Source: Streptomyces sp. CG1
Lineage (GTDB): Bacteria > Actinomycetota > Actinomycetes > Streptomycetales > Streptomycetaceae
DNA length: 64,000 nt
Assembly (NCBI RefSeq): GCF_041080625.1
Contig: NZ_CP163518.1
Location: forward strand, 6,937,501 to 7,001,500
Direction: 5' to 3'
Shown here: piece after piece, positions 27,505-45,403 of the stretch
Layout: each line of letters starts with the position of its first letter
Position numbering within the stretch: the first letter of the stretch is position 1
Made by a program: the position numbers and the translations under genes
Notes under the pieces: model-generated
Seen by the model: the letters and a program-made list of their open reading frames with translations, nothing else
Told to the model about the DNA's origin: nothing
Database searches by the model: none

Positions 27505-28554
27505 TCAGACCTTCGGTGCCCCAAGGATCGCGCCGATGTGGGCCGCTGCCGTTGACAGGTGGCGGCGGGCGTCGCGGAGCTGGTCCTGGGTTACTCCGTG
27601 GTCGCGGGCCGCGTCGCGGATGTCGTCGCGGAAGCGGTCCAGGAGGCGGTCCAGGTCGCGGCTCGGGTCGCCGCTGGACTCCTCGTGCGCCCAGGAGGGT
27701 TCGTACTCGGCGGGGAAGTCTTCCTCCGGGGAGACGTAGTGCGGGTCCGAGGACGTGGCCGTGGGCTTGGCGGCCGGCTCCTCGGGGGTGCGCGGGGAGG
27801 CGTTCCAGCTCTTGCCGAAGTCGCCCAGTTCCCTGGCCAGTTCGGACAGGCCCTCGCGCACGCCCGTCGGCCAGTCGCCGTGGGCGAAGTGGTCCTGGAC
27901 GCGGTCCTGGACCTGGCGGGCGATGCGCTGCATCTCCTCCTGCGCCTGGGCCCGTGCCCGCGTCTGCGCCTCCTGGGCCTGGCGGCGGGCCCGCTGGACC
28001 TCCTCGCGGGCCCGGCGGCTCTCGTCCTTGGCGCGGCGGGCCTGTTCCTTCCACTCCTGCTTGACCCGGCGCATCTCCTCCTTCGCGACCCGCCAGGCCT
28101 CCTTGTCGGTCGTGTCGCCGTACTCCGCGAAGGGACCCGCCGCGCCGGCGTCCGTCTTCGCGGTCCGGCGGGCCTCGGACGCGGCCGCGCGCATCTCACG
28201 GCGCAGATCGCCGGCCGCGCCGCGCACGTCGGCCTTTATCTCGGCGGCCAGTTCCGCGACCGACTCGCGGATCTCCAGCTCCAGGTCGGCCAACTCGCCG
28301 CTGCGGCCAGCCAGTTCGGCCCGGCCGGCGTCCGTGATGGCGTACACCTTGCGGCCGCCCTCCGTGGTGTGCCGGACCAGGCCCTCCGCCTCCAGCTTGG
28401 CCAGCCGGGGGTAGACCGTGCCCGCCGAGGGGGCGTACAGCCCCTGGAAGCGCTCCTCGAGGAGCCTGATCACCTCGTAGCCGTGGCGCGGGGCCTCGTC
28501 GAGCAGCTTGAGCAGATACAGGCGCAGGCGCCCGTGGGCGAAGACGGGGGGCAT
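27505..28554 (-). CDS. PadR-family regulator with long helical tail
   Basis: 349 aa. Residues ~8-95 are a PadR winged helix (RLYLLKLLDEAPRHGYEVIR, YAPSAGTVYPRLAKLEAEGL, GRKVYAITDAGRAEL). The rest is unusually long: a highly charged continuous helix (~95-240, rich in KEEMRRVKQEWKEQARRAK-like heptads) and an acidic, Pro-rich C-terminus ending DARRHLSTAAAHIGAILG. Typical PadR proteins are ~110-200 aa. It starts 1 bp after the DUF4097 stop, so the pair is one operon, probably self-repressed via the palindrome at 29562-29575. Confidence 0.9.
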   Translation of the reverse strand: MPPVFAHGRLRLYLLKLLDEAPRHGYEVIRLLEERFQGLYAPSAGTVYPRLAKLEAEGLVRHTTEGGRKVYAITDAGRAELAGRSGELADLELEIRESVAELAAEIKADVRGAAGDLRREMRAAASEARRTAKTDAGAAGPFAEYGDTTDKEAWRVAKEEMRRVKQEWKEQARRAKDESRRAREEVQRARRQAQEAQTRARAQAQEEMQRIARQVQDRVQDHFAHGDWPTGVREGLSELARELGDFGKSWNASPRTPEEPAAKPTATSSDPHYVSPEEDFPAEYEPSWAHEESSGDPSRDLDRLLDRFRDDIRDAARDHGVTQDQLRDARRHLSTAAAHIGAILGAPKV

Positions 28555-28555
28555 G

Positions 28556-29506
28556 TCAGAGCACCTTCTTGTCGGTCGTGCCAGCGGATTCGTCGGACTG
28601 GCCAGCGGCCGGGGTGTCGGCGGCGGGGGTGGCGCCGGGAGCCTGCGCGGACTCCGTGGGCTGCGGGGGCTCCGTCTTCCACGGGGTGTCCGGCTCGTCC
28701 TCGCGCGGCGGGCGGCGCAGCAGGGCGATCGAGCCGGAGACCGTGGTGGCGCGGAGCCGCCCCGTGCCCGCGCCGAGGCGGCCGGTGATCTTGTGCGCGC
28801 CCCACTGGCCGTGCACCCGCAGTCCGTCGAAGGCGTTGGAGATCGTGCCGCTCGCGGTGTTCGCCTCCACCTCGGCGTCTCCCGGGTGGGGCAGGCGGAT
28901 GGCGATCTCGCCGGAGACGCTGGTGAGGCCGACCTCCGTGGGTCCGTCCGGGTCCAGGTCGACGATCATGGAGCCGCTGACGGAGTCGGCGCGGACGGAG
29001 CGGCCGGAGCCGTCGACCACCGTCAGGTCTCCCGAGACCGACTTGAACCGCAGGTCGCCCGTGACGGCCTGGGCCTCCAGGTTCCCGGACACGGTGTCCG
29101 CGTGGACCGGGCCCGAGACGCCGACCAGGGTCGTGTCGCCGGTGACTCCCTTGACCATCGCAGGGCCGCGGATGCCGGAGACGACCGCGCCGGCGCCGAC
29201 CACGCCGACCTCCACGCGGGTGTCCGCGGGGACCGCCAGGGAGACCACGGCGCTGCGCCGCCAGCCCTTGCGGTCGAGCCACTTCAGGAAGCCCTTCCAG
29301 GGCAGGTCCTCATAGGCCACGGTGAGGGTGTCGCCCTGCTGGGTGACCACCAGGGGCGGGCCCTCGATCTCCGAGATTTCCAGGCGGGCGGAACCTTCGT
29401 CCGTGCCCACCACGTTGACCGTTCCGTTGACGATGCGGACCTGGAGGTCGCTCACGCGGGTGTCAAAGGTCAGCTTCTGGGGCTCGGTGACGGACCACTC
29501 GGGCAT
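28556..29506 (-). CDS. DUF4097 beta-strand repeat protein
   Basis: 316 aa from ATG 29506 with GAGGAGG 6 nt upstream. Short repeated beta motifs run through residues ~110-260 (KGVTGDTTLVGVSGPVHADT, VSGNLEAQAVTGDLRFKSVS, VSGSMIVDLDPDGP, TASGTISNAF), the DUF4097/DUF4098 beta-helix pattern. No signal peptide, so probably cytosolic. The C-terminus is Pro/Thr/Glu-rich. It commonly pairs with PadR regulators in actinobacteria, perhaps as a ligand-sensing partner; function not established. Confidence 0.9.
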   Translation of the reverse strand: MPEWSVTEPQKLTFDTRVSDLQVRIVNGTVNVVGTDEGSARLEISEIEGPPLVVTQQGDTLTVAYEDLPWKGFLKWLDRKGWRRSAVVSLAVPADTRVEVGVVGAGAVVSGIRGPAMVKGVTGDTTLVGVSGPVHADTVSGNLEAQAVTGDLRFKSVSGDLTVVDGSGRSVRADSVSGSMIVDLDPDGPTEVGLTSVSGEIAIRLPHPGDAEVEANTASGTISNAFDGLRVHGQWGAHKITGRLGAGTGRLRATTVSGSIALLRRPPREDEPDTPWKTEPPQPTESAQAPGATPAADTPAAGQSDESAGTTDKKVL

Positions 29507-29561
29507 GGAGGCCTCCTCGGCAGGCACGGCCGCGACACGCCATATCGCGTCCTCTGGTAAA

Positions 29562-29575
29562 CACGATATATCGTG
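29562..29575. promoter_or_regulatory. Palindromic operator upstream of the DUF4097-padR operon
   Basis: CACGATATATCGTG is a perfect 14-bp palindrome 56 bp upstream of the DUF4097 start, AT-rich against the background. A related ATATCG string occurs at 29542-29547. AT-rich palindromes of this type are PadR targets; autoregulation is inferred. Confidence 0.65.
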
Positions 29576-29702
29576 GATCCCGGAAGTCAAGGCACCTTTT
29601 GAGTGAGAAGGCCGGCGAAGGCCGGCGTGCGATCTCGTACCCCTCGCGTCCGGGACACGGCCTACCCTGGGGGAGTAGGCCCGTCCCCATCAGGAGTGAG
29701 AG

Positions 29703-29882
29703 TTGTACTTCACCGACCGTGGCATCGAGGAACTGGAGAAGCGGCGCGGCGAGGAGGAGGTCACCTTCGAGTGGCTCGCCGAGCAGCTGCGGACGTTCGT
29801 CGATCTCAACCCGGACTTCGAGGTGCCGGTGGAGCGGCTGGCGACCTGGCTGGCGCGGCTGGACGACGAGGACGACGAGTAG
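29703..29882 (+). CDS. DUF6104 family protein (59 aa)
   Basis: TTG start with AGGAG 7 nt upstream; TAG at 29880-29882. The protein begins MYFTDRGIEELEKRRGEEEV, continues with WLAEQLRTFVDLNPDFEVPV and ends acidic (LDDEDDE), which I recognise as the small conserved Streptomyces family DUF6104. Function unknown. Monocistronic, divergent from the DUF4097 operon. Confidence 0.88.
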   Translation: MYFTDRGIEELEKRRGEEEVTFEWLAEQLRTFVDLNPDFEVPVERLATWLARLDDEDDE

Positions 29883-30015: not shown

Positions 30016-30372
30016 ATGAGTCACATCCAGGACATCGAGCTGCCGGACGGCACGGTGGTCACCGCCCGGATCGGCGCGGGGGAGGCCTACGGCGACCAGG
30101 AGGACGTCGGCTTCACCGAGGCCGCCGTCGCCAAGGTCGAACAGCTCCAGGAACTGATCAGGGCCGTCGGCGGCACCGTGCTCGACGCCGCCCGCGCGGC
30201 CAAGCCGCACGAGGCCTCCATCAGCTTCGGCGTGGAACTGACCGCCAAAGAGGGCCTGGCCGTCGCCGTGCTCGCGCGCGGGGAGGCCAAGGCGTCCCTG
30301 GAGGTCACCCTCACCTGGCAGTTCGACCGGGGAACCTCGGAGGAGGGCGCGGGCAGAGCGGTGGGCGCATGA
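30016..30372 (+). CDS. Trypco1 (CU044_2847) domain protein
   Basis: 118 aa. The beta-rich fold with IELPDGTVVTARI near the start and SISFGVELTAKEGLAVAVLA, then ASLEVTLTW at the end, matches the trypsin-co-occurring domain 1 (CU044_2847) family. These small proteins are encoded next to trypsin-like proteases in VMAP-type conflict systems and are thought to gate or target the protease. Its stop overlaps the protease start (ATGA at 30369-30372), giving stoichiometric coupling. First gene of the 30.0-41.1 kb system. Confidence 0.88.
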   Translation: MSHIQDIELPDGTVVTARIGAGEAYGDQEDVGFTEAAVAKVEQLQELIRAVGGTVLDAARAAKPHEASISFGVELTAKEGLAVAVLARGEAKASLEVTLTWQFDRGTSEEGAGRAVGA

Positions 30373-32333
30373 GCGAGCGCGACGACCGTCTCTTCGACCT
30401 CGTCCGGGCCGCCACCGTCCATCTGCTTCCCGCCGACGGGAAAGACGGCCCCTTATGGGGCAGCGGTTTCTTCGTCGCGCCCGGCTGGGTGCTCACCGCC
30501 GCCCATGTGCTGCGCCCACACCTCGCGGCGGACCGCACGACCGCCTTCCGGGTGCGCGGCGAGGGCGTCGACGTCGAGGCCCGCCTCGCCGAATGGCTGC
30601 TCAGCGACCCGCGCAACCCCAAGGTGCCGCTGGCCGAGGACCTGGCCCTGGTCCGGCTGACCGACACGTACCCGCATGAGTGCGTGTGGCTCACCGACCG
30701 GGCCGCCCGCCACTCCGGCGCCCTCAAGGCCTGCGGCTACTTCCCGGTGCCGCCCGAGGCCCACTTCCGCATCGTGGACGCCGAGATCAACGGCCACGAG
30801 GACACGTACGGGCTGATCATCAAGCCGGACGTCGACTTCCCGAGCGGTATGTCAGGCGGCCCGCTGCTCGACCCCGGGACGGGTGCGGTCGTAGGACTCA
30901 TCAAGTCGCGGCGCACGACGAGGGACGGCACCCCGACGGAGGGCGGCAAGGCTGTGGCGATCGCCGCGCTGCGCCGGTTCGGGGAGACGTACCGCGAGGT
31001 CATGACCGCCCATGACCGCTGGCACGGCGAGGAGCCGGTCTCGGAGACCGGGGACAACTGGATCGACCTCCAGTGCGGCCCGGCGGCCGACCCGGGCGCG
31101 GTCTGGACGCCCCGTGACCGCCGCAAGGCGCTCGCCCTGCTCGCCGCCCTGCCGCAGCCGCCCGACGAGCCCACCGTCAAGCTCATCGCCAAGGAGGCCC
31201 GCAGCGGCAACCAGTGGCCCGGCGGCACCCCCGAACTGCGCACCTGGCGCGACGGCCACGGCCTGCTGTACGAGGGCACCACCCCGCTCGACCCGCTCGT
31301 CTTCCTGCGCTTCCTCAGGCTCGTGGAGGCCCACGCCGGCGCACGCGAAGCCGGTAGTCCCCTCCTTGCCGGCTGGATCACCAAGCGGCTGCGCCACGAC
31401 ACCCGCCGGCACTTCCACGCCATGGTCCGCGACGTCACCCTCCCCGACGAGCTGAAGCCGCCGCCCGAGGACCACGGCCCCGAGCGCGTCGTGATCTCCT
31501 ATCCCGGCCCCGGCGAGGGCCCCGTCGTGGCCCTGCTGCTCGACCCGGTGATCGGCGCGCAGCCCGTCCGGTTCTTCTGGCAGATCTGGTACGACGACGG
31601 AGACGGCCTGCCCGAGGTCCACGAGACGGACTCCTCGGTACACGGATACCGGCCCGACGAGCTCGTCCAGGCACTCCGTGTCCCCCTCGGCGGACTGCTG
31701 GAGTCCAAGGACCGGGAGGGCCACCCCGTACCGCTCGAAGTCGCGCTGCCCGCCGAGCACCTGGACACCGCCGTGCACCGCTGGCGGTTCGCGGACATCG
31801 CCGCGCTGTACGACCCCGGGCACCTGGGCGCGCGCCGCCGCCTGGTGCTGCGCGCCCTCGAGCGCCGGGGAGATCCGGACAATCTCTGGCTCGACCGCTG
31901 GCAGGGCATGGCGGCCGGGCACCGCTTCCAGGGCTGGCGCATGCCCCCGCCGGGCGCCGCGGACCCTTCCGGCTACCGCGGCGCCGGGCGCGACCGCATC
32001 CCCGTGATGTGCCGTCCGGCCGGACAGGGGCCCGGGCGGGTCGCCATGAAGCACGCGCTGAACAGCGGCCACGCCGTCGCGCTGTGGCACATCGGCCCGC
32101 ACCCGGAGCGCGGCGCCTGTCTGCCGGAGTGTGACACGCTCCACGCGCGCGTGGAGAAGTTCCTCGAAACGCTCGGCTCGCTGGCCGAACTCCCCGACCG
32201 GCTGCGGCTCGTCCGGCAGGACATCAGCGAACAGCACCCCGACAGCGCCTGGGCCGAACCGCTCGCCCTGCTCTACGACGACCCGCGCCGGCCTCTGCCG
32301 GACGAGGAGACCGAACCGGTGGACGCGCCGTGA
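30369..32333 (+). CDS. Trypsin-like protease-VMAP protein
   Basis: 654 aa. Residues ~10-225 are a trypsin-like serine protease with complete triad H46 (VLTAAHVL), D91 (AEDLALVRL) and S162 (PSGMSGGPLL). A central helical domain (~245-350) and a C-terminal VMAP-C-type region follow (RVVISYPGPGEGPVVALLLD, FFWQIWYDDGDGLPE, HRWRFADIAALYDP, GHAVALWHIGP). No signal peptide, so the protease acts in the cytosol, where unrestrained activity would be toxic; a regulated effector is the simplest reading. It sits between trypco1 and MoxR/vWA genes as in described VMAP systems. Confidence 0.9.
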   Translation: MSERDDRLFDLVRAATVHLLPADGKDGPLWGSGFFVAPGWVLTAAHVLRPHLAADRTTAFRVRGEGVDVEARLAEWLLSDPRNPKVPLAEDLALVRLTDTYPHECVWLTDRAARHSGALKACGYFPVPPEAHFRIVDAEINGHEDTYGLIIKPDVDFPSGMSGGPLLDPGTGAVVGLIKSRRTTRDGTPTEGGKAVAIAALRRFGETYREVMTAHDRWHGEEPVSETGDNWIDLQCGPAADPGAVWTPRDRRKALALLAALPQPPDEPTVKLIAKEARSGNQWPGGTPELRTWRDGHGLLYEGTTPLDPLVFLRFLRLVEAHAGAREAGSPLLAGWITKRLRHDTRRHFHAMVRDVTLPDELKPPPEDHGPERVVISYPGPGEGPVVALLLDPVIGAQPVRFFWQIWYDDGDGLPEVHETDSSVHGYRPDELVQALRVPLGGLLESKDREGHPVPLEVALPAEHLDTAVHRWRFADIAALYDPGHLGARRRLVLRALERRGDPDNLWLDRWQGMAAGHRFQGWRMPPPGAADPSGYRGAGRDRIPVMCRPAGQGPGRVAMKHALNSGHAVALWHIGPHPERGACLPECDTLHARVEKFLETLGSLAELPDRLRLVRQDISEQHPDSAWAEPLALLYDDPRRPLPDEETEPVDAP

Positions 32334-32469
32334 ACACCCTGGAAGGCTGGCCGAAATCACCTGCGTATCCGGGGCGCCGCGGGTATGTTCCCAGGGGCCC
32401 GTTGCGGGCGCACGACGCCCCCGTCGGCCAGGACGTGGACCACCACCGACCGTCGGCGAGGAGCGCAGT

Positions 32470-33468
32470 ATGAGCGAGTGGTTCGTCTACCAGGGCATCG
32501 GGCAGCCGGATCCGGCCAGGATCGACGCGCTGCCCGAACCGCCGCCCTGGCGGAAGTTCGACGCCCCGCCCGTCGACTACGACGTGCCGGAGCTCGACTC
32601 CGCGACCCATCGCAGGCTCGGCGAGCGCACCGTCCCGCTGCCCGTCCAGGACCCTGACGCCCTCGAACTCGTCAACGCGGCCCTGTACTTGAGGCGCCCC
32701 CTGCTCGTCACCGGCGAACCCGGCGTAGGCAAGTCCACGCTCGCCCACTCCGTCGCCTACGAACTCGCCCTCGGCCGCGTCCTGGAGTGGCCGATCGTCA
32801 GCCGCAGCGAACTGCGCGACGGCCTCTACACCTACGACGCCATCGGCCGCCTCCAGGACGCCCAGCTCCCCGGCGAGGCCGCCGCCCAGGACATCGGCCG
32901 GTACATCAAGCTCGGCCCGCTCGGCACCGCGCTGCTCGCCGCCGAAAAGCCCCGGGTCCTGCTCATCGACGAGCTCGACAAGAGCGATATCGACCTGCCG
33001 AACGACCTGCTGAACGTCCTGGAGGAGGGTCGCTTCGCCATCCCCGAGCTGCAGCGCATCGCCGACCACACCCCCGAGGTACGGGTCCTCACCGACGACG
33101 GCCGCCGCGTCACGGTGACGGACGGCCAGGTCCACTGCCGCTCCTTCCCGTTCGTCATCATGACCAGCAACCGTGAGCGCGAGTTCCCCGCCGCCCTGCT
33201 GCGCCGCTGCATCCCGCTCGACCTGAAGGCCCCGCGCGACGAGCGGCTCGCCGCCCTCGTCCAGGCCCATTTCGGGCAGGACGCCTACGACACCAACCGT
33301 GATCTCGTCGACCGGTTCACCCAGGCCGAGGCGGACGGCGCGCTGCGCCCCACCGACCAGCTCCTCAACGCCATCTTCCTCGCCCAGCACGCCGCCCGCG
33401 AGGCCGGTCAGCGGCGCGAGGAGATCTCGGAGCTGCTGATGCAGCCCCTCGACCGAGGACCGCGCTAG
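32470..33468 (+). CDS. MoxR-family AAA+ ATPase
   Basis: 332 aa from ATG 32470 (GAGGAG upstream). Walker A TGEPGVGKST (81-90), Walker B VLLIDELDKSD (163-173), sensor 1 FVIMTSNRERE and an arginine-rich LLRRCIPLDL. MoxR ATPases work with vWA proteins to remodel or activate partners; the vWA gene follows after 3 bp. In VMAP systems this pair is proposed to act as the NTP-dependent switch controlling the protease effector. The 136 bp before it (32334-32469) hold no gene, so it may have its own promoter. Confidence 0.92.
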   Translation: MSEWFVYQGIGQPDPARIDALPEPPPWRKFDAPPVDYDVPELDSATHRRLGERTVPLPVQDPDALELVNAALYLRRPLLVTGEPGVGKSTLAHSVAYELALGRVLEWPIVSRSELRDGLYTYDAIGRLQDAQLPGEAAAQDIGRYIKLGPLGTALLAAEKPRVLLIDELDKSDIDLPNDLLNVLEEGRFAIPELQRIADHTPEVRVLTDDGRRVTVTDGQVHCRSFPFVIMTSNREREFPAALLRRCIPLDLKAPRDERLAALVQAHFGQDAYDTNRDLVDRFTQAEADGALRPTDQLLNAIFLAQHAAREAGQRREEISELLMQPLDRGPR

Positions 33469-33471
33469 AGC

Positions 33472-36400
33472 ATGACCCCCCGCGCTCCCGGCAGTCCGAC
33501 GAGCGGCGTGAGCCCGGTGCTCACGGCGCTGGTCGCGCGTATGCGGGACGCGGGGATCGCGCCAGGGGTCGAGGAGCTGGCGGACGCGCTGTGGCTGGCG
33601 CGCTGGCTTCCGGCTTCCGGGGAACAGGCCGACGGGGCGGGAGCGGGTCCCCTCCCGGATCCGGAACCGTCCGCCGGCACCGACACGCTCCCCCCACGCC
33701 GGCTCCCCCGGGCGCATCCGCCCGCCGAGGACGACGGGCCCCGACAGCCCGACAACGCCCGCCTGTTCGTCCCCGGCCCGGGCGGTGACGACGGCACCGA
33801 CACCCGGATGACCCCGGTCCGCGTCCCCGCCGCCCCCGCCCTGCCCGAACCCCTCGCCCTGCAACGAGGGCTACGGCCCCTGCAGCGCTACCGCGCACCC
33901 GTACGACCGGTTCCGCGCACCCTCGACGAGCAGGCCACCGCCCAACGCGCCGCCGAGTCCGGGCTCGTCCTGCCCGTCCTGCGCACCGACCGGCGCCGGG
34001 AGGCCCGCCTGCTGCTCCTGATGGACGTCTCCACCTCGACGGCCGTCTGGCAGCAGGCCCTCGACGAACTGCGCCAGGTCTGCGCCCGCGCCGGCGCCTT
34101 CCGCGAGGTGCAGGTGCGCTATCTGCACGAGGCGCCCGGCGGGCTGCCCGGCTGCGCGGCCACCCCGGAGCCGGGTGCCATGCTCTACGCACCGGAGCAG
34201 CTCAGCGATCCGACGGGGCGGCGGGTCACGCTGGTCCTCAGCGACTGCGCCGGGCCCATGTGGCGCAGCGGCCGGGTGCAGCGGCTGCTGCACCGCTGGG
34301 CGGCCACGGCGCCCGTGGCCGTCGTACAGCCGTTGCCGCAGCGGATGTGGCTGCGGACGCATCTGCCCGCGCGGCGCGGGTTGTTGCAGCGGCGTGAGGG
34401 GCCTGCCGGGTCGCTGCGGTTCCGGCCCGACCGGGGCAAGGCCGAGGCCGGGGCGCTGCCGGTGCCGGTGCTGGCACTGCGCCGGGAGTCGGTGGAGGGC
34501 TGGGCGCGGCTGGTGTCCGGCGCCACGGGGCAGTCGCTGGCCGCCGCGGCCGGGTGGGTGCGGGCCGATCACCCGGCGTCCGGGGCGCCCTTGCGGGCGG
34601 CGGAGGAGCGCAGCGGCGAGGAGCGCGTCAATGCGTTCTGGCGTCAGGCGTCCTCCGAGGCGCGGCGGCTGGCGGTGTATCTGTCGGCGGTACCGCTGTA
34701 TCTGCCGGTGATGCAGCTGGTGCAGCACGCGATGCTGGCCGGGAGCGGCCCGGATGTCCTCTCCGAGGTGCTGCTGAGCGGGCTGCTCAGGCGGCGGGAG
34801 GACGCGGACGATCTGCGGGCGGTGCGCTACGACTTCCTGCAGGGGGTCGCTTCCGAGCTGCGGTCGCGGCTGTCCGTCGAGGAGGCGGAGCTGCTCTTCA
34901 AGCACTGCTCCGAGTACGTGGAACGGAAGTTCGGGCGAAGCGCGCGGAACTTCCCCGCGCTGGCCGGTGCGTTTCTGCGGGGAGCGGTGCCGTCGGACGG
35001 GGAGTTGTCCACGGGCCCGGGGGAGCCGGAACCGGCAGGGCTACGGGCGTTCGCCGAGGTGTCGGCGGCGGTGCTGCGGGACCTGGGGGCGCGGCTGCAG
35101 CCGGTGCCGGTGGCCGCGGCGGCCGGTCAGTTGCCCGGGGAGCTGCTGGAGCTGGGGCGGCGGGCGCTGGACCGGTTCCACGAGGAGGGCCTCACCCGGG
35201 AACTCGACGCGGCGGTGGGGTACTTCGGGGTGGCGGCGACCGATGTCCGGTCGGACACGGAGCGAGCCTCCGCTCACGAAGTCCTGGCCGACGCGCTGCT
35301 CACCCGGTGGCGGGTGCGGCGCGTGGGGGACGACCTCAGGGAGGCATGGGAGGCGGTCGAGCACACTTCGTCCCTGTCCGGGCTGCTCGTCCGGGGACTG
35401 GTGTGCTGGGCGCAGGCGCAGGAAGTGCGGTACGCGGGGGTCGACTTCGACGGTATTCCGGAGAGCCTGCGGGAGTGGGCCCGTCAGGAGCCGCGGCGGG
35501 CCGGGGAGCGAGCTCTGCGCGTGTTGCTGTACGAGGCCGAGGCGAGCCTTGTGGCCGTCATGGACGCGGCGGACGCGCCTGCGGAGCGACGCAAGGTCGC
35601 TGCCGAGGTGCTGACGGATGTGCGGCGGGACATCGCGGAGCTGGGCCCGGACGAAGGGATCGACGCCGAGTTCTGGTACGTCCGGCACCTGGAGCGGGCC
35701 ACCGACGCGGTGGGGGTATGGCTGACGGGCCTGGACGGGCTTGCCGTACGGGGGCGGTTGTGGCTGGACCTGGCCCGGCAGTACGCGGGGAAGGGGCCGG
35801 TCGCCAGGTCCGCCCCCGACCGGTGGCGTGCCGAGTACTGTGCCGCGCGGGCCGGTGACGACCTCGTCCGGGCGGCCGGCGCCGACACCCTTCTGCCGGA
35901 CGCGGTGCGCTGCCGGATCTGGCTGGACGCGGCGGCCGCCATCGAGATCGAGCAGCCCCCACGCGAGGACGCCCGGGAGCGGCGGACGCTGCTGTATGCG
36001 GTGGACGAGGCCCTGCGGGCCGCGGGCGACGACGAGGAGCTCAGGTTCGAGTGCCACGCGTGGGCCGCGAGGATCTACAGCGACCGCTACGCGCACTCCG
36101 CGGACCTGACCCAGCTGGACTGCGCCATCGACGCGTGGTCGGAGGCCGGATCGCTGCTCCACCTGGATGATCCCCGGCGGCCGGAGACGGCAGCCGACCT
36201 CGGTCGTGCCCTGTTCGAACGGTTCGTACAGGCGCAGTCGCCGGACGACCTCGCCCGGGCCGTCCACGTGCTGCGCCGCGCGGTCGAGCAGTCCCTGCCC
36301 GACGATCCCCAGCTGCCCCTGCGGCGCCGGAATCTGGCGGACGCGTACATCATGCGCTACCGGAAGACCGACGTACTGACCGAGCTGTACGAGGCCGACT

Positions 36401-36750
36401 GGCTGCTCGGCGAGGCTGTTCGCGGTGCCGACGACCCGGTGCACCTCGCCCGGTGCTGGAACAGCCGCGCGCACCTGTCCCTGGAGCTGCACGGGCGCAC
36501 CGGGGCGGTCACGCACCTGCACACGGCGATCGACTGCTTCGGCAAGGCCGTCGCGTACGCCGAGGAGGCGGGCGACGACGCACTGGTGGCCGAGGCCCTC
36601 AGAGGACGTGCCCGGGCACGGGAGCGGCAGGGCAGACCCGCCACGGCCCGGAGCGACTACGAACGTGCTCTCCGTCTGACCGGTCGCGCGAGCCCCGGCG
36701 ACGTCCAGCAGCGCCCATCCCCCCTGTCCCCCGAAACGGCCGACGAGTGA
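33472..36750 (+). CDS. SAV_2336-type protein: vWA-like domain plus TPR-like region
   Basis: 1092 aa. After a Pro-rich N-terminus, a vWA-like domain begins near residue 175 with a MIDAS motif D185-V-S-T-S189 (LLLMDVSTSTAVWQQAL), and continues through VTLVLSDCAGPMWRSG and AVVQPLPQRMWLRTHLP. The region to ~500 contains the SAV_2336 signature (LVSGATGQSLAAAAGWVRAD, EARRLAVYLSAVPLYLPVM). The last ~550 residues are helical TPR-like repeats (TAVTHLHTAIDCFGKAV-type near the end). Partner of the MoxR ATPase 3 bp upstream; its stop overlaps the FxsA start (GTGA). Confidence 0.88.
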   Translation: MTPRAPGSPTSGVSPVLTALVARMRDAGIAPGVEELADALWLARWLPASGEQADGAGAGPLPDPEPSAGTDTLPPRRLPRAHPPAEDDGPRQPDNARLFVPGPGGDDGTDTRMTPVRVPAAPALPEPLALQRGLRPLQRYRAPVRPVPRTLDEQATAQRAAESGLVLPVLRTDRRREARLLLLMDVSTSTAVWQQALDELRQVCARAGAFREVQVRYLHEAPGGLPGCAATPEPGAMLYAPEQLSDPTGRRVTLVLSDCAGPMWRSGRVQRLLHRWAATAPVAVVQPLPQRMWLRTHLPARRGLLQRREGPAGSLRFRPDRGKAEAGALPVPVLALRRESVEGWARLVSGATGQSLAAAAGWVRADHPASGAPLRAAEERSGEERVNAFWRQASSEARRLAVYLSAVPLYLPVMQLVQHAMLAGSGPDVLSEVLLSGLLRRREDADDLRAVRYDFLQGVASELRSRLSVEEAELLFKHCSEYVERKFGRSARNFPALAGAFLRGAVPSDGELSTGPGEPEPAGLRAFAEVSAAVLRDLGARLQPVPVAAAAGQLPGELLELGRRALDRFHEEGLTRELDAAVGYFGVAATDVRSDTERASAHEVLADALLTRWRVRRVGDDLREAWEAVEHTSSLSGLLVRGLVCWAQAQEVRYAGVDFDGIPESLREWARQEPRRAGERALRVLLYEAEASLVAVMDAADAPAERRKVAAEVLTDVRRDIAELGPDEGIDAEFWYVRHLERATDAVGVWLTGLDGLAVRGRLWLDLARQYAGKGPVARSAPDRWRAEYCAARAGDDLVRAAGADTLLPDAVRCRIWLDAAAAIEIEQPPREDARERRTLLYAVDEALRAAGDDEELRFECHAWAARIYSDRYAHSADLTQLDCAIDAWSEAGSLLHLDDPRRPETAADLGRALFERFVQAQSPDDLARAVHVLRRAVEQSLPDDPQLPLRRRNLADAYIMRYRKTDVLTELYEADWLLGEAVRGADDPVHLARCWNSRAHLSLELHGRTGAVTHLHTAIDCFGKAVAYAEEAGDDALVAEALRGRARARERQGRPATARSDYERALRLTGRASPGDVQQRPSPLSPETADE

Positions 36751-36899
36751 CCCTCCCCACCGACGACACCCACATACCCCTCCCGGAGATCGCCCCACCC
36801 GACCACACCGACCACCCGGTGCTGGCCGCGATCCTCGCCGAACTCCGGGCACGGGAAGGAGAGCCCACCGTCGTCGCCCACTACGAGGACGCGCCATGA
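36747..36899 (+). CDS. fxsA: FxsA-like precursor peptide with variant C-terminus
   Basis: 50 aa, GTG start overlapping the previous stop; its TGA overlaps the ATG of the radical SAM gene. The body fits FXSXX-COOH precursors: IPLPEI near the start, then HPVLAAILAELRAR. The family ends F-x-S-x-x; this one ends HYEDAP, that is Y-E-D-A-P, aromatic-x-Asp-x-x. FxsB-type enzymes join an aromatic ring to the beta carbon two residues on (three-residue cyclophane), and Tyr-Glu-Asp keeps that geometry. The family call rests mainly on context and this alignment. Confidence 0.75.
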   Translation: MTLPTDDTHIPLPEIAPPDHTDHPVLAAILAELRAREGEPTVVAHYEDAP

Positions 36900-38095
36900 G
36901 GACCCACCCGACATGGCCGTACGACACCCTGGACACGCGCGCCCACGAGCCCGTGCCCTTCCGGCAGTTCGTGCTGAAGGTGCACGGCCGCTGCAACCTC
37001 GACTGCACCTACTGCTACCTCTACCAGGGGCCCGACCACGGCTGGCGCGACCGTCCGCGGAGCACCGGCGCCCGCACCATGCGCCGCACGGCACAGCGCA
37101 TCGCCGAGCATGTCCGCACCCACCGCCTCGACGCCATCCGCATCGAACTCCACGGCGGCGAACCCCTCCTCACCGGCCCCGACCCGGTCCTCGCCTACAC
37201 CGACGCCGTACGCGAGGCCGTCGACGGCCAGGTCACCGCCACCGTCCAGACGAACGGCACACGGCTGACGCGCAGGACCCTCGACCGGCTCGCCGGCGCC
37301 GGGATCCGTGTCGGCCTCAGCCTCGACGGCGGTCGTCCCGCGCACAACGCCCGCCGCGTCGACCACGCCGGCCGGCCCGCCTGGCCCGCCGCCCGCGCGG
37401 CAGCGCTACGGCTCGCGGAGCGCCCGGAGTCGTACGCCGGAATCCTCTGCACGATCGACCTGACCACCGATCCGCTCGACGTCTACCGCTCCCTGCTCTC
37501 CCTGCGCCCGCCCGGCGTCGACTTCCTCCTGCCGCACGCCAACTGGGGCACATACGGCGGGCCCCCGGGAAGGCACCGCCCTGCCCCCACCCCGTATGGC
37601 GACTGGCTCACCGCCGTCTTCGACGCCTGGTGGGACATGAGGCGCCCCGAAGACCCCGTCCGCATCCGTCTGTTCCAGGAGATCGCCGCCCTCCTCCTCG
37701 GCGCTGCCAGCCGCGCCGAGGGCGTAGGACTGTCGCCCATGGCGGCCGTCGTCGTGGAGACCGACGGTGCCATCGAGCAGGTCGACGCCCTCAGGTCGGC
37801 GTACGAGGGAGCTTCCGAAACCGGTCTGAACGTCCACCGGCACTCCTTCGACGACGCCCTCCGCCACCCCGGCATCGCCGCACGCCAGCTGGGCGAGCGA
37901 GCGCTCGCCGACGAGTGTCTGAGCTGTCCCGTGGGCAAGGTGTGCGGAGGCGGGAACTACGTGCACCGGTACGCTCCTGGGACCGGGTTCCGGCACCCCA
38001 GTGCCTACTGCGCCGACCTGGAACGGCTCATCCGCCACATCGCGCACCGGCTGACCGGTACCGTTCTCAACTCAACACCTCTGAAGCCGATTTGA
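36896..38095 (+). CDS. fxsB: FxsB-type radical SAM/SPASM peptide maturase
   Basis: 399 aa. The [4Fe-4S]-SAM motif is C33-x3-C37-x2-C40 (RCNLDCTYCYLYQG), followed by IRIELHGGEPLLTGP and TATVQTNGTRLTRRTLDRLA, VGLSLDG. The C-terminal auxiliary-cluster (SPASM-like) region carries DECLSCPVGKVCGGG with a later YCADLERLI. These enzymes form cyclophane crosslinks on FxsA-like peptides. The start overlaps the peptide gene, so enzyme and substrate are coupled. I infer that Tyr46-Asp48 of the peptide is the modified pair; no other core motif is available in that peptide. Confidence 0.93.
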   Translation: MRTHPTWPYDTLDTRAHEPVPFRQFVLKVHGRCNLDCTYCYLYQGPDHGWRDRPRSTGARTMRRTAQRIAEHVRTHRLDAIRIELHGGEPLLTGPDPVLAYTDAVREAVDGQVTATVQTNGTRLTRRTLDRLAGAGIRVGLSLDGGRPAHNARRVDHAGRPAWPAARAAALRLAERPESYAGILCTIDLTTDPLDVYRSLLSLRPPGVDFLLPHANWGTYGGPPGRHRPAPTPYGDWLTAVFDAWWDMRRPEDPVRIRLFQEIAALLLGAASRAEGVGLSPMAAVVVETDGAIEQVDALRSAYEGASETGLNVHRHSFDDALRHPGIAARQLGERALADECLSCPVGKVCGGGNYVHRYAPGTGFRHPSAYCADLERLIRHIAHRLTGTVLNSTPLKPI

Positions 38096-38155
38096 CGCAC
38101 AATTGAATAACCTGTGCACACTCGTGACCAGGTTCAGTCGAGGGGAAACGGCGAG

Positions 38156-41116
38156 ATGGCGGCGGAACTCGGACACGTCACGGTGGTGTTCGCCGGACAG
38201 AGCGAGTCCTGGGCCAAGTGGATCGACCACCAGATCCGGGCCGCGGGACGGAGCACCACGCTGATCAGGTGGAACCCGCTGCGGCGGCCGCCGTCCGCCG
38301 AGGCGTTCGCCGAGCTGCTGAGCGCACCCGGGCGCGTGCTCCTGGTCATCGACGACTGGTACGAGCGGCTCGGCGCCGAGCGGTTCGACGCCTGGGCCGA
38401 GGCCCTGCGGCAGGTGCTGCCGGCCTACCAGGACCGGATCGCCGCCGTCAGCATCACCGCCCGGCCCATGCCGGAGGCCGTCATCGCCCTGGCCCCCGTC
38501 GAACTGCGCGGCCTCAGGCCGGAGATCGCGCGCAGCCGCGTGCTGGAGTGCGCCGGCATCCCGGCCCCGGGCACCCTGATCGACCTGCGCCGCGGCCCCC
38601 GGTTCCCGGACGATCCGCCGGACGTGTGGCAGGTCCCGCGCCGCAACCGCCGTTTCATCGGGCGCACCGAACTGCTGGAGAAGGTCTACGGCGCCTTCTC
38701 CGCCGCCGGGCCCGACGGCGCCGCCGTGGCGCTGCTCGGCCCGGGCGGCTTCGGGAAGACACAGCTGGCGCTGGAGTACGTCCACCGGTTCGCCGGCGAG
38801 TACGACATCGTGTGGTGGATCAGCGCATCCCAACGCGTCACCGCCCGCCAGCAGTTCGCCGACCTCGCGCCCGCGCTGGAGCTGCGCGACGCCGGTGATC
38901 TCGCGGCCACCATCACGGCCGTACGGCGGGCCCTCGACCGCACCCAGCGGCCCTGGCTGCTCGTCCTGGACGGCGCCGGGGACCCGGAGCGGCTGGTCGA
39001 CCTGCTGCCCGAGGGCCGCGGGCACGTCCTGATCACCACGCACCGCAGCGAGTGGGGCGCCCACGCCGAGAACATCGCCGTGCCCGTCTTCGAGCGCAGC
39101 GAGAGCGTCGCCTTCGTCTCGCGGCGCACGGAGCGGCTCAGCGACACCCAGGCCGCGCGTCTCGCCGAGGCCGTGGAGGACATGCCGCTGCTGCTCGACC
39201 AGACGTCCGCCTGGCTGGACATCAACCCGACCGTGCCGGCCGACGACTACATCCGGGACATCCGCGACGGCCGTCCGGACCGCTTCGGTGTGATGCCCTC
39301 CGGCCAGTACCCGGAGAGCTTCGAGGTCGCCTGGGCCAAGCTCGTCAACACCCTGCGCGAGGGCTCCGAGTCCGCCTGGCAGCTCCTCAACCTGCTCGTG
39401 TGCTTCTCGCACGACGTGGTGCCGGTACGGCTGCTGCAGACGGCCCGGCACGGCGATCTGCCCGCCGAACTGGCCGAGTTGATCACCGAGCCCAGCAGCT
39501 GGAACACCGCGCTGCGCAGGCTGTCGGAGATCACCTCCATGCGCATCGAGTACGAACCCGGCCCGCGGATGGACACCCAGACCGTCGGCACCCTGCGCAT
39601 GCACCGCCTCTTCCACCGCTTCGTCCGTTCCATCCAGTCACCCGCCGACGCCGAGCGCTATGCGGCCGCCGCCCGCAAGGTCCTCGTCTCCGCCGACCCG
39701 CGCGACTCCTCCTCGGCCGGCAACTGGGCACGGTACGCCGCTCTCATCCCGCACCTGGAACCGTCGGGCGCCCTGGAGTCGGCCGAAGGCGATGCCCGGG
39801 AACTCGTCCTGAACTGCATTGAATACCTGCGAATGCGCGGCGAGTACCACGACGGCTGGTGGCTCAGCCGTACGGCCGTCAAGCACTGGGAGGCCAGCTC
39901 CGGCGACACCGACCGCTCGGTGCTCGTCGCCGCCCACCAGCTCGCCAACATGCTGCGCCGCCTCGGCCGGTACGAGGACGCGAAGACCGTCGGCCAGGAG
40001 ACGCTCGGGCGTCTGGAACGCGCCGACGAGGTGCGGCCCATCGAGATCATCCGGGCCAAGGACGGCCTCGGCGGCACCCTCATGGCGCTCGGCCGGTACG
40101 GCGAGGCCCGCGCGCTGTTCGAGGAGGCCGCCACGGCCGCCGCCGCGGAACTCGGCGGGGAACATGTGCCGCGCACCCTCGCCGTCCGCAGCAACCTCGC
40201 CGTCGCCCTCGGCCTCCAGGGCCGCTACGCCGAGTCGCTCACCCTGCACCGCAAGGTCTTCGAGGCCCGGCTGGACATCCTCGGCGGCCGTGACGCCCTG
40301 ACCCTCAACTCCGCGCTGCACACCGCCTGGATGCTGCGGCTGCTCGGCAGCTACCGGGAGGCGCTGGCCATCCAGGGCCACAACTGCCGGGTGCACAGCC
40401 AGGTGCTGGACCGCACCCACAGCCAGACCCTGCTCGCCGAGCACAACCTCGCCCTGTGCGCCCGCCGCGTCGGCGACCTGCAGTTCGCGCACGCCATGCT
40501 GCGCGGGGTACGGGAGAAGCTGATCCGCCGGCGCGGGCCGCTGCACCCGGAGACGCTGATGGTGTCCTGCGACTACGCGATGATGCTGCGCGACCTGGGG
40601 CGCACCGAGGAGGCCCGCGACCTGGCCGAGGCCACCGCCACCCACTACGCCGCCCAGCTCGGCGAACGCCACCCGTACGCGATCGGCGCGCGGGACAACG
40701 TGGCGACCATCATGCGAGACCTGGGCGAGCACCGGGTGGCGCTGGACCTGTCCCGGCAGGCCGCACGTCAGATGCGGCGGACGGTCGGCAAGGACCATCC
40801 GTGGGCCATCGGCTGCGCCAAGAACGAGGTCGCCGCGCTGGCCGCCGTAGGAGAGACCGACGAGGCGGCCGAGCTGGGCCGAGAGGCCGCCGACCGCTCC
40901 GCGCGCGTCCTGGGCGACGCACACGTGCTCACCATCAGCCTGCGCGCCGGACTCGCACTGGACCTGGCCGAGCTGGGCCGGCGGGACGAGTCCGAGTCCC
41001 TCCACCAGGACGCGGTAACCCGCCTCACCTCCCTCCTGGGCGCCGACCACCCCCACACCCGCCGCATCCTCGAACGCCACCGCCCGTACTGGGACTTCGA
41101 GCCACAGCCGATCTGA
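38156..41116 (+). CDS. fxsT: FxsT: TIR-like, NB-ARC and TPR protein
   Basis: 986 aa from ATG 38156 (GAGGGG upstream); GTG 38114 would add 14 residues. Residues ~5-135 are TIR-like (VTVVFAGQSESWAKWIDHQI, VLLVIDDWYERL, ALAPVELRGL). A STAND/NB-ARC NTPase follows: Walker A GPGGFGKT (195-202), Walker B WLLVLDGA (267-274), and MPLLLDQTSAWL. The remaining ~450 residues are TPRs (RRLGRYEDAKTVGQETLGRL, LGLQGRYAESLTLHRKVFEA). It is named as the FxSxx-COOH system tetratricopeptide protein. Sensor (TPR), switch (NTPase) and effector (TIR) lie in one chain; whether the TIR has NADase activity cannot be read here. Confidence 0.9.
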   Translation: MAAELGHVTVVFAGQSESWAKWIDHQIRAAGRSTTLIRWNPLRRPPSAEAFAELLSAPGRVLLVIDDWYERLGAERFDAWAEALRQVLPAYQDRIAAVSITARPMPEAVIALAPVELRGLRPEIARSRVLECAGIPAPGTLIDLRRGPRFPDDPPDVWQVPRRNRRFIGRTELLEKVYGAFSAAGPDGAAVALLGPGGFGKTQLALEYVHRFAGEYDIVWWISASQRVTARQQFADLAPALELRDAGDLAATITAVRRALDRTQRPWLLVLDGAGDPERLVDLLPEGRGHVLITTHRSEWGAHAENIAVPVFERSESVAFVSRRTERLSDTQAARLAEAVEDMPLLLDQTSAWLDINPTVPADDYIRDIRDGRPDRFGVMPSGQYPESFEVAWAKLVNTLREGSESAWQLLNLLVCFSHDVVPVRLLQTARHGDLPAELAELITEPSSWNTALRRLSEITSMRIEYEPGPRMDTQTVGTLRMHRLFHRFVRSIQSPADAERYAAAARKVLVSADPRDSSSAGNWARYAALIPHLEPSGALESAEGDARELVLNCIEYLRMRGEYHDGWWLSRTAVKHWEASSGDTDRSVLVAAHQLANMLRRLGRYEDAKTVGQETLGRLERADEVRPIEIIRAKDGLGGTLMALGRYGEARALFEEAATAAAAELGGEHVPRTLAVRSNLAVALGLQGRYAESLTLHRKVFEARLDILGGRDALTLNSALHTAWMLRLLGSYREALAIQGHNCRVHSQVLDRTHSQTLLAEHNLALCARRVGDLQFAHAMLRGVREKLIRRRGPLHPETLMVSCDYAMMLRDLGRTEEARDLAEATATHYAAQLGERHPYAIGARDNVATIMRDLGEHRVALDLSRQAARQMRRTVGKDHPWAIGCAKNEVAALAAVGETDEAAELGREAADRSARVLGDAHVLTISLRAGLALDLAELGRRDESESLHQDAVTRLTSLLGADHPHTRRILERHRPYWDFEPQPI

Positions 41117-41284: not shown

Positions 41285-44200
41285 TTACGCCTCGAACACC
41301 TCACGGACCAGCTGCTCCTGCTCGGCCTGGTGGCGCTTCGCGGAGCCGACCGCCGGGGACGAGCCGTGCGGGCGGGAGATGCGGCGCAGGCGCTCGCCGT
41401 GCGGGACGTCCGCGCCGACCGCGAGGTCCAGGTGGTCGATCAGGTTGAGCGCGATGAACGGCCAGGCACCCTGGTTCGCCGGCTCCTCCTGCGCCCACAG
41501 GTACTTCTCGGCGTTCGGGTACTTCTTGATCTCCGCCTGGAGCTCGGCACCCGGCAGCGGGTACAGGCGCTCGAGGCGGATGATCGCCGTGTCCGTGATG
41601 CCGCGCTTCTGACGCTCGGCCTCCAGGTCGTAGTACAGCTTGCCGGCCACGAAGACGACCTTGCGGACGGCGGCCGGGTCCACCGTCTCGTCGCCGATGA
41701 CGGGACGGAACTGACCCGACGTGAACTCCTCCGTCTTCGACGCGGCGGCCTTCAGGCGCAGCATCGACTTCGGGGTGAAGACCACCAGCGGCTTGTGGTG
41801 CGGGTTGTGCACCTGCCACCGCAGGAGGTGGAAGTAGTTCGACGGCAGGGTCGGCATGGCGACCGTCATGTTGTTCTGGGCGCAGAGCTGGAGGAACCGC
41901 TCGACACGGGCCGAGGAGTGGTCCGGGCCCTGGCCCTCGTAGCCGTGGGGGAGGAGCAGCGTGACGCCGCTCGTCTGGCCCCACTTCTGCTCGGCTGCCG
42001 AGATGTACTCGTCGACCACCGTCTGCGCGCCGTTGACGAAGTCACCGAACTGCGCTTCCCACATCACGAGCGCGTCGGGACGGGCCAGCGAGTAGCCGTA
42101 CTCGAAGCCCATGACCGCGTACTCGGACAGCAGGGAGTTGTAGACGTTGTAGCGCGCCTGCTCCTCGGCGAGGTACTGCAGCGGGGTGTACTCCTCGCCC
42201 GTCTCGCGGTCGATGAGGACCGCGTGGCGCTGGCCGAAGGTGCCGCGCTGGGAGTCCTGGCCGGACAGCCGGACCGGGGTGCCCTCAAGGAGCAGGGAGC
42301 CCACAGCGAGCGTTTCGCCCATGCCCCAGTCGATCGTGCCGTCCTCGACCATCGTCGCCCGGCGCTGCAGCTGCGGCAGCAGACGCGGGTGCACGTGGAA
42401 GGTGTCCGGGATGTTGACCTGGGACTCGGCGATGCGCTTGACGACCTCCGAGGAGATCGCGGTGCTCGCGGCGACCGGGAAGTCCGCCTGCGGGTCCGGC
42501 ACCGGGCCGGTGCCCTGCGGGGACGTGACGGCCTCGCGGACCTCCGTGAAGACCTTCTCCAGCTGCCCCTGGTAGTCCTGCAGGGCCTGCTCGGCCTCTT
42601 CCAGGGTGATGTCGCCGCGACCGATCAGGGACTCGGTGTACAGCTTGCGCACCGAGCGCTTCTTGTCGATCAGGTCGTACATCAGCGGCTGGGTGAAGGC
42701 CGGGTTGTCCGACTCGTTGTGACCGCGGCGGCGGTAGCAGATGAGGTCGATCACCACGTCCTTGTTGAACGCCTGGCGGAACTCGAAAGCCAGGCGGGCA
42801 ACACGCACGACGGCCTCCGGGTCGTCGCCGTTCACGTGGAAGATCGGGGCCTCGATCATGCGGGCCACGTCCGTCGCGTACATGGAGGAACGCGAGGACT
42901 CGGGGGCCGCGGTGAAGCCGACCTGGTTGTTGATGACGATGTGGACCGTGCCGCCGGTGCGGTAGCCGCGCAGCTGCGACATGTTCAGGGTCTCGGCCAC
43001 CACGCCCTGGCCCGCGAAGGCCGCGTCGCCGTGCAGCGCGACCGGCAGGACCGTGAAGTCCGTGCCGCCCTTGTTGATGATGTCCTGCTTGGCGCGGGCG
43101 ATGCCCTCGATGACCGGGTCGACCGTCTCCAGGTGGGAGGGGTTCGCGGCCAGCGAGACCGTGATCTGCTCGCCGTCCAGGCCGGTGAAGGTGCCCTGGG
43201 CGCCCAGGTGGTACTTCACGTCGCCGGAGCCGTGCATCGACTTCGGGTCGAGGTTGCCCTCGAACTCGCGGAAGATCTGCGCGTACGACTTGCCCACGAT
43301 GTTCGCCAGCACGTTCAGCCGGCCGCGGTGGGCCATGCCGATGACGACCTCGTCCAGGCGGGACTCGGCCGCGGAGTCGATCACCGCGTCCAGCAGCGGG
43401 ATGACGGACTCGCCGCCCTCCAGCGAGAACCGCTTCTGGCCGACGTACTTCGTCTGCAGGAAGGTCTCGAAGGCCTCCGCGGCGTTCAGCCGGCGCAGGA
43501 TCCGCAGCTGCTCCTCGCGCTCCATCTTGGAGTGCGGGCGCTCCACGCGGTCCTGGATCCACTTGCGCTGCTTGGGGTCCTGGATGTGCATGAACTCGAT
43601 GCCGATGGTGCGGCAGTACGAGTCGCGCAGCACGCCGAGGATGTCGCGCAGCTTCATCAGGGACTTGCCGGCGAAGCCGCCGACCGCGAACTCGCGCTCC
43701 AGGTCCCACAGGGTGAGCCCGTGCTCGGTGATGTCCAGGTCGGGGTGCTTGCGCTGCTTGTACTCCAGCGGGTCGGTGTCGGCCATGACATGGCCGCGGA
43801 CCCGGTAGGAGTGGATCAGCTCGAAGACGCGGGCGGCCTTGGTGACGTCGTCGTCGTGGCTGGCGTCGATGTCCTTGAGCCAGCGGACCGGCTCGTAGGG
43901 GATGCGCAGGGCCTCGAAGATGTCGTCGTAGAAGCCGTTCTCGCCGAGGAGCAGGTTCGCGACCTGGCGCAGGAACTCGCCGGAGGCGGCGCCCTGGATC
44001 ACCCGGTGGTCGTAGGTCGACGTGAGCGTCATGACCTTCGAGACACCGAGCTTGTTCAGCGTGTCCTGGCTGGTGCCCTGGAACTCCGCCGGGTAGTCCA
44101 TGGAGCCGACGCCCATGATCACGGACTGGCCGGGCATCAGACGCGGGACCGAGTGGACGGTGCCGAGGCCGCCGGGGTTGGTCAGGGAGACCGTGACTCC

Positions 44201-45100: not shown

Positions 45101-45403
45101 GGCGGCAACCGCCCTCTTCCGCTTCACAAGGTGATGGACAGCGGGAATAAAGGCTACGCCTCTGCGGCCGGGAAGGTCAGGTCGAGCAAGGTCATCGTCG
45201 CGTAAGTCACATCGGAAATCTTGTTTCAGGGCTTGATATGGCGGGAAACAAGCGTGGTTCCGCAGGTGAGAAGGTGCACCGGTCCCGGCCCGTCGCGCCG
45301 CTCTCGTGCGGATCGCGCGGGCCTGCCCCTGATCACACGTGTCCAGCTGCACGGCTATGGCGCGGACACACGTGGATCTTGTGCTTCCGGTGGGAACTTT
45401 ACG
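45101..45403. other. 303-bp region upstream of 2-oxoglutarate dehydrogenase
   Basis: Between the histidine kinase stop and the dehydrogenase start, both leftward, so it carries the kinase terminator and the dehydrogenase promoter and leader. An imperfect inverted repeat, CACACGTGTCC with GGACACACGTGG, spans about 45333-45375 and may be either. No gene seen. Confidence 0.45.

Follow-up and report, generated by a model that had tools for sequence, protein, structure and literature searches.

A trypsin-VMAP gene cassette with a YxD-tailed precursor peptide at a variable chromosomal slot in Streptomyces

Introduction

The architecture of VMAP ternary systems was described by comparative genomics; one type (FxSxx) combines a vWA protein that carries TPRs only with a separate TIR-AP-ATPase-TPR gene (Kaur 2020, PMC7159879). 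The same paper lists four tail types (FxSxx, RxD, acidic and FtsH-associated), counts a zincin-like MPTase in the core of the peptide module, and describes the systems as enriched in multicellular bacteria and variable in their effectors. A different division of labour, with the vWA protein as sensor and the VMAP protease as effector, is proposed in PMC10907252, and vWA-MoxR-VMAP domains are placed near type III CRISPR loci in PMC10910872. A review reports that the maturase YxdB forms a C3(Tyr)-Cbeta(Asp) bond (PMC11002830). Here we describe a seven-gene cassette of this kind in a stretch of 64,000 nt, hereafter the window, from the chromosome of Streptomyces sp. CG1 (GCF_041080625.1; NZ_CP163518.1, positions 6,937,501-7,001,500). 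Its precursor peptide carries a YxD tail, and the cassette stands at a slot where other Streptomyces hold the same type, a deeply diverged alternative or no cassette at all.

Since the architecture was already described in Kaur 2020, the cassette is not a new kind of system, and its assignment to the VMAP ternary systems in a preliminary description of the window agrees with the available text of that paper. A YxD-tail type without an MPTase is absent from the four types listed there. Among the listed papers of the open literature, subscription journals being outside the scope, no report was found that joins YxD tails with VMAP systems or describes an exchange at this slot. We regard it as about evenly balanced that the cassette is complete and that its co-adapted parts act inside the cell as a conflict system of the VMAP ternary type, namely a variant with a YxD peptide in which the modified peptide is the ligand of the protein FxsT, and that such units are exchanged at a single slot.

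Results

The seven-gene cassette

The cassette lies on the plus strand and begins with trypco1, a trypsin-co-occurring protein (30016..30372; PF19493, 65.6 bits), followed by VMAP, which joins an N-terminal trypsin-like protease (PF13365, Trypsin_2, 58.9 bits) to VMAP-C (30369..32333; PF20028, 121.1 bits, cut-off 27). A MoxR AAA+ ATPase (32470..33468; AAA_5, 37 bits) and a SAV_2336-type vWA protein with a C-terminal TPR region (33472..36750; NF041121, SAV_2336_NTERM, 442.5 bits) come next. The precursor peptide of 50 aa has a GTG start and the tail YEDAP-COOH (36747..36899), and it precedes the FxsB-family radical SAM/SPASM cyclophane maturase (36896..38095) and FxsT, a protein with TIR-like, NB-ARC and TPR parts (38156..41116). 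The open reading frames (ORFs) bear out the gene order and the common strand given in the preliminary description, and the Trypco1, VMAP-C, SAV_2336 and FxsB models that it had suggested were all matched. It had most junctions overlapping by 4 bp, which holds for three of the six (trypco1/VMAP, SAV_2336/precursor and precursor/FxsB). For MoxR the most likely start is ATG 32470, preceded by AGGAG and 136 nt past the end of VMAP, and the gene is spaced from SAV_2336 by 3 nt; for FxsT it is ATG 38156, 60 nt past FxsB, the ORF itself opening with GTG 38114. The identical order recurs in further species, including VMAP, MoxR and vWA in this succession (30369-36750 in the window), and the gene train is far from chance.

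Tail type and HExxH enzyme in relatives

Of the 293 genomes available for the order, 187 gave matches at E <= 1e-40 with FxsB as query, and the best 80 of 136 relatives were taken as named loci. Sixty further stretches were added, two from the CG1 genome and 58 from elsewhere, several of these being contigs of named loci. Stretches shorter than 9 kb (L065 and the short loci) were excluded from the context counts. After copies identical over the last 200 FxsB residues had been dropped, 138 FxsB entries at 130 loci remained, and VMAP was found within the fetched stretch at 90 of them. At these 90 loci the peptide tail and the gene content correspond with zero exceptions: all 46 Y-tail loci lack a HExxH gene and all 44 F-tail loci have one. 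The typing was done by pattern (28 Y, 12 of them read by eye, and 44 F), and 18 loci missed by the pattern were reassigned to Y on seeing YEDAP or YDDAP; some tails of the F type are atypical and show no clear FxN or FxS. The YEDAP-type tail of the window is shared by relatives, and the exact ending Y[ED]DAP is present at 26 of the 46 Y-tail loci, with an extension or variant at the other 20. The remaining 40 loci, which have no VMAP in the stretch, partly owing to contig ends, are not in the 46 and 44; 13 of them are Y without HExxH, three are F with HExxH, and among the untyped ones 16 have HExxH and eight do not.

The extra gene of the F-tail loci matched the alpha-ketoglutarate HExxH peptide beta-hydroxylase profile TIGR04267 at all six F loci tested, by which its candidacy as FxsC was rejected. 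It appears to be the zincin-like MPTase of Kaur 2020. In the CG1 genome the only TIGR04267 match is at C1:8385982, some 1.4 Mb from the cassette. An FxsT-like ORF (>50 bits, either strand) is present in the stretch of 125 of the 130 FxsB loci.

One slot, alternative cassettes

Y and F cassettes occupy the same slot, bordered by DUF6104, DUF4097 and PadR genes on one side and kgd on the other. In the window these are a PadR-family regulator (27505..28554, minus strand; PF03551, 77.7 bits), a DUF4097 protein (28556..29590, minus strand; PF13349, 38 bits) and the small DUF6104 gene at the left border (29703..29882, plus strand; PF19599, 126.9 bits), with a 2-oxoglutarate dehydrogenase-type gene, which we take to be kgd, on the right (41285..45352, minus strand). 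Among the 90 VMAP loci, PadR and/or DUF4097 are in the stretch of 79, kgd of 71 and DUF6104 of 88; kgd together with PadR/DUF4097 was seen at 64 loci and at least one side at 86. The DUF6104 gene (29703-29882) has the strand of the cassette in the window and the opposite strand in 78 of the 88 relatives having it, so that the border of the slot is locally inverted.

Trees built by quick or FastTree methods for VMAP, MoxR, SAV_2336, FxsB and FxsT, with 91 rows in each, show a single change between Y and F per tree. Together with the shared gene order and content, this supports well the earlier proposal that the genes form a single system. The kgd tree (70 rows with enough kgd in the stretch) requires 14 Y/F changes, at least 10 of them forced by well supported branches, and the tree of rpoB, which is distant on the chromosome, requires eight for 30 chosen genomes, 15 Y and 15 F (bootstrap 7-9; 46-47 of 500 label shuffles were as low). 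Because the five cassette trees split once, against 14 changes for kgd and eight for rpoB, we infer that whole cassettes have been exchanged.

Pairwise comparisons point the same way. Eight Y/F pairs were chosen, in which kgd is 87-95% identical and DUF4097 66-80% (seven pairs measured), and identities are 33-40% for VMAP, 38-47% for FxsT, 39-44% for SAV_2336, 57-64% for FxsB and 61-70% for MoxR. In two control pairs of the same type the cassette genes are 85-94% identical with kgd at 96% (Y/Y) and 71-92% with kgd at 90% (F/F), VMAP reaching 71 and 92% and FxsT 82 and 94%. Across 1120 Y/F pairs with kgd, FxsT identity stays at 36-49% while kgd goes up to 96%. At the DNA level, flank matches of 79-94% in five Y/F pairs break off close to the edges of the cassette (for one pair, within the FxsT 3' end), and patches of 65-78% plus one 40-base match at 90% remain within the cassettes. 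The kgd-side DNA is 87-92% identical in four of these five pairs; one stretch of the fifth has no kgd.

Whole co-adapted cassettes have therefore probably been exchanged repeatedly between Streptomyces species, exchange being our reading of the cause of the tree conflict. The main rival to exchange is an old tandem duplication of which each species kept one copy, the conflict then being due to differential loss. Two FxsB copies per stretch do occur elsewhere (L153, L154, L155, L204, L207, L210). However, all 90 VMAP loci were given a single tail type each and had the HExxH state that goes with it, and the changes counted on the kgd and rpoB trees would demand many independent losses, which makes this explanation quite unlikely. 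As to a vehicle, the phage records gave no VMAP match and the plasmid collection gave nine records matching FxsT, all below 60% identity. Since no mobile carrier was seen in these records, exchange of cassettes through the conserved flanks is only inferred.

The slot can also be empty. Of the 106 genomes negative for FxsB, the 20 listed ones were looked at and 18 slots were informative. At 13 of these there is no cassette and only 86-435 nt separate DUF6104 from the kgd stop, and two hold other or rearranged genes (L218, L230). The other three (L215, L220, L227) carry a third form, with trypco1, VMAP, MoxR, SAV_2336, HExxH and then FxsT, and no FxsB; the HExxH gene was confirmed by profile at two of these three loci.

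Precursor peptide and maturase

The precursor ends in HYEDAP, YED being residues 46-48 of 50. It aligns with positions 15-47 of the 47 of the YxD-tail cyclophane peptide model NF041709 at 38.5 bits (cut-off 55), and with the FxSxx-COOH model TIGR04268 at 17.6 bits (cut-off 28). The label Fxs, given to the gene train in the preliminary description, was not borne out; the tail is of the YxD type. The radical SAM/SPASM maturase could be confirmed, with 406.6 bits on the FxsB model TIGR04269 (cut-off 370) and a CX3CX2C cluster conserved in 91 of 91 aligned rows including the window. Because YxdB makes a Tyr-Asp bond, a three-residue Tyr-Asp cyclophane is expected here, and by analogy the precursor is probably cross-linked from Tyr to Asp at YED. 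At one relative locus (L161) the same cassette type is accompanied by a peptide that passes the NF041709 cut-off with 84 bits.

Some relatives deviate in these two genes. At L074 and L170 a single precursor carries two tandem cores, YFSDAP and YFADTP. At L070 (9995-11211) FxsB is seemingly split into two overlapping frames; the gene may be broken, or the sequence may contain an error. At L061, L063, L069, L108 and L174 FxsB goes together with a YYEDSP peptide. Profiles, run on L061 only, place SLATT/DUF4231, TIR, bpMoxR-like and TIR-NB-ARC-TPR genes next to it, so that loci of this kind are possibly a non-VMAP MoxR system with the same peptide type.

VMAP, MoxR and SAV_2336

The trypsin triad of VMAP, described earlier as intact, is indeed present as H46/D91/S162 in the window and in all 91 aligned rows (window included). 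MoxR has the Walker A and B residues, two Arg and an N-terminal W and WR conserved in 91 of 91 rows; its N-terminal motifs WFVYQG and PPWRKF agree with the WxhapG and PsWRxa given in Kaur 2020 (PMC7159879). In SAV_2336 the first MIDAS-like Asp is found in 91 of 91 rows and the C-terminal half is the least conserved part. Returning to VMAP, the residue six before the catalytic Ser, which we take to be the place of the trypsin S1 Asp, is D in 34 of the 91 rows and E in 25, and 13 Y rows have R. A basic residue stands 1-19 residues ahead of the peptide core in all 90 VMAP loci. Release of the tail by VMAP through a cut after Arg or Lys was considered as a candidate and set aside, the variable S1-like position giving it no clear support.

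These features bear on another explanation, close to a proposal in Kaur 2020, in which the matured peptide is a toxin or an amplifying signal released by the VMAP protease, and FxsT is a second, independent effector. The invariant triad would suit it, and among the six scanned cassette proteins no other protease was recognised. Its difficulties are a tail that is conserved for an arms-race toxin, as the frequency of the Y[ED]DAP ending illustrates, the near-constant presence of FxsT-like ORFs at FxsB loci, the inconstant S1-like position, and the finding that no transporter was recognised among the six scanned proteins. We consider this explanation unlikely.

FxsT

FxsT had been described as a TIR-NB-ARC-TPR protein. 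It matches NF040586 (FxSxx_TPR, 785.7 bits, cut-off 300), and the TIR assignment scores 25.9 bits against a Pfam cut-off of 28. For this N-terminal domain a plain Foldseek search puts flavodoxin-like chains first, and a second structural comparison speaks for a fold of the TIR kind. In TIR NADases the catalytic Glu presumably follows the conserved helix C Trp by four residues; in FxsT this place seems to be taken by L, namely in 46 of the 47 Y rows and in 43 of the 44 F rows. The suggested role of the domain as an effector is doubtful, because the Glu seems to be missing from its usual place. The preliminary description also had the TIR of a separate FxsC gene carried on FxsT. Such a transfer can be rejected, because FxsT of an F-tail locus (L066) has a TIR-like domain too (TIR_2, 59 bits); a sequence search of the PDB with this part gave no hit at E up to 1. 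The search for FxsC had no match in the CG1 genome, nor did it have one in any control genome.

In fold searches with the FxsT model the NB-ARC part matches CED-4 and Apaf-1. The TPR part matches Rap and NprR (with pheromones), KLC1 (which binds C-terminal peptides), APPBP2 (degron) and MalT. The C-terminus of FxsT, WDFEP, is invariant in 59 of 59 aligned rows.

Other FxsB and VMAP systems of the CG1 genome

A second FxsB-family maturase (418 bits) of this genome stands beside the TPR protein HaaT (1592 bits) at G000:C1:6096436-6101046 (L151:6437-11047) and probably belongs to a His-type cyclophane system. Further matches of HaaT are to the AfsR model, at 363 bits and thus under its cut-off, and, weakly, to the FxsT model. 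At G000:C1:8387181-8394377 (L152:7182-14378) there is a second VMAP system, whose vWA protein continues into an FxsT-like NB-ARC-TPR part (855 bits) and which corresponds to the fused type of Kaur 2020 (PMC7159879); a HExxH gene is close by on the other strand.

The AfsR match of HaaT, beside the other FxsB of CG1, together with the similarity of the FxsT TPRs to MalT, Rap and NprR and the position of the slot next to a core metabolic gene, would fit a developmental or metabolic regulator of Streptomyces, that is, a peptide-sensing STAND protein comparable to MalT, AfsR or Rap/NprR, instead of a conflict system. However, no DNA-binding domain was among the matches of the six proteins, presence/absence and the swapping of deeply diverged versions would be unlike core development genes, and VMAP systems show the enrichment in multicellular bacteria and the variable effectors noted above from Kaur 2020 (PMC7159879). 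A regulatory role of this kind seems improbable to us.

Discussion

The preferred reading, a co-adapted conflict system with the modified peptide as ligand of FxsT, suggests the following sequence of events, read from protein families and folds. VMAP, MoxR and SAV_2336 would form an ATP-driven switch, in which the VMAP protease may be the output or may free other parts, both of which have been proposed in print. FxsB would cross-link the Tyr and the Asp of the YED motif, giving a three-residue cyclophane as expected from YxdB chemistry. The matured tail could then be a ligand of the TPR superhelix of FxsT and set whether FxsT is closed or assembling; potentially, the WDFEP tail of FxsT itself competes for the same TPR groove. 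For the TIR-like domain a part in assembly is more likely than one in NAD cleavage. At the slot, the entire unit would be swapped for the deeply diverged alternative with an FxN/FxS-like tail and HExxH, for the form with HExxH only, or for nothing. Of these steps, ligand binding, the direction of the switch and the trigger are the least certain. This sequence of events is best supported by the co-inheritance of tail type, tailoring enzyme and receptor and by the recurrence of FxsT-like TPR proteins near FxsB, HaaT of the CG1 genome among them.

Several observations weigh against parts of this reading. With shuffled labels the kgd tree requires 22.9 changes on average, and none of 500 shuffles was as low as the 14 observed; as the Y/F labels are non-random on this tree, some vertical inheritance remains. 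On the rpoB tree well supported branches alone force three changes. The precursor stays under the cut-off of the YxD model, and the S1-like position of VMAP does not argue for release of the tail. The WDFEP motif is the same with both peptide types and need therefore not mimic the peptide, and high Z values among TPR superhelices are partly generic. Finally, PADLOC matched no model of a whole system in the window and only shared domains; for example, the radical SAM protein scored 50.6 bits with pVip and VMAP 26.7 bits with RT-Protease.

A putative immunity or self/non-self function was proposed in the preliminary description, together with a peptide that sets or releases the switch; cassette swapping fits such a function and is not proof of it. 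It is tempting to speculate further that the DUF6104-kgd slot is a bacterial self/non-self or immunity locus where two or three ancient, non-recombining haplotypes are shared across Streptomyces species and persist, along with empty alleles, because balancing or frequency-dependent selection maintains them, much as at the het loci of fungi or the NLR loci of plants, the cross-linked cytoplasmic peptide (YxD or FxN/FxS) being the haplotype token for its own STAND receptor. This extension is doubtful.

Within a VMAP system, the cassette would bring together a peptide modification of defined chemistry and a receptor resembling NLRs, and the slot offers a natural set of alternative versions at a single chromosomal place. 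Therefore, two questions become testable, namely the role of the modified peptide and whether VMAP systems protect against phages or mark self. Close relatives with different versions (G066 with Y; G257 and G097 with F) provide ready comparisons.

Comparison with known systems

The cassette resembles the FxSxx system of Kaur 2020 (PMC7159879) in the order of VMAP, MoxR and vWA, in the company of trypco1 with a trypsin-VMAP, in the radical SAM/SPASM enzyme, and in a vWA protein with TPRs only followed downstream by a separate TIR-AP-ATPase-TPR gene. It differs from that system in the YxDxx tail and in that the MPTase gene, read here as HExxH, is absent at the cassette. With the YxD-tail triceptides (YxdB, NF041709) the peptide shares the Tyr-x-Asp core; in contrast to these, it stops directly after AP and scores under the NF041709 cut-off, and its maturase passes the FxsB model. 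As in the HAA cyclophane system with HaaT (L151), an FxsB-family maturase adjoins a TPR protein. That system shows no VMAP, MoxR or SAV_2336 match upstream, and HaaT, unlike FxsT, belongs to a different family and has no WDFEP tail. In its model matches and its probably TIR-like N-terminus FxsT resembles NLR- and Apaf-like STAND proteins (Apaf-1, CED-4, RPP1, Avs3), whereas its sensor is a TPR superhelix and its TIR-like domain seems to be without Glu at the expected place.

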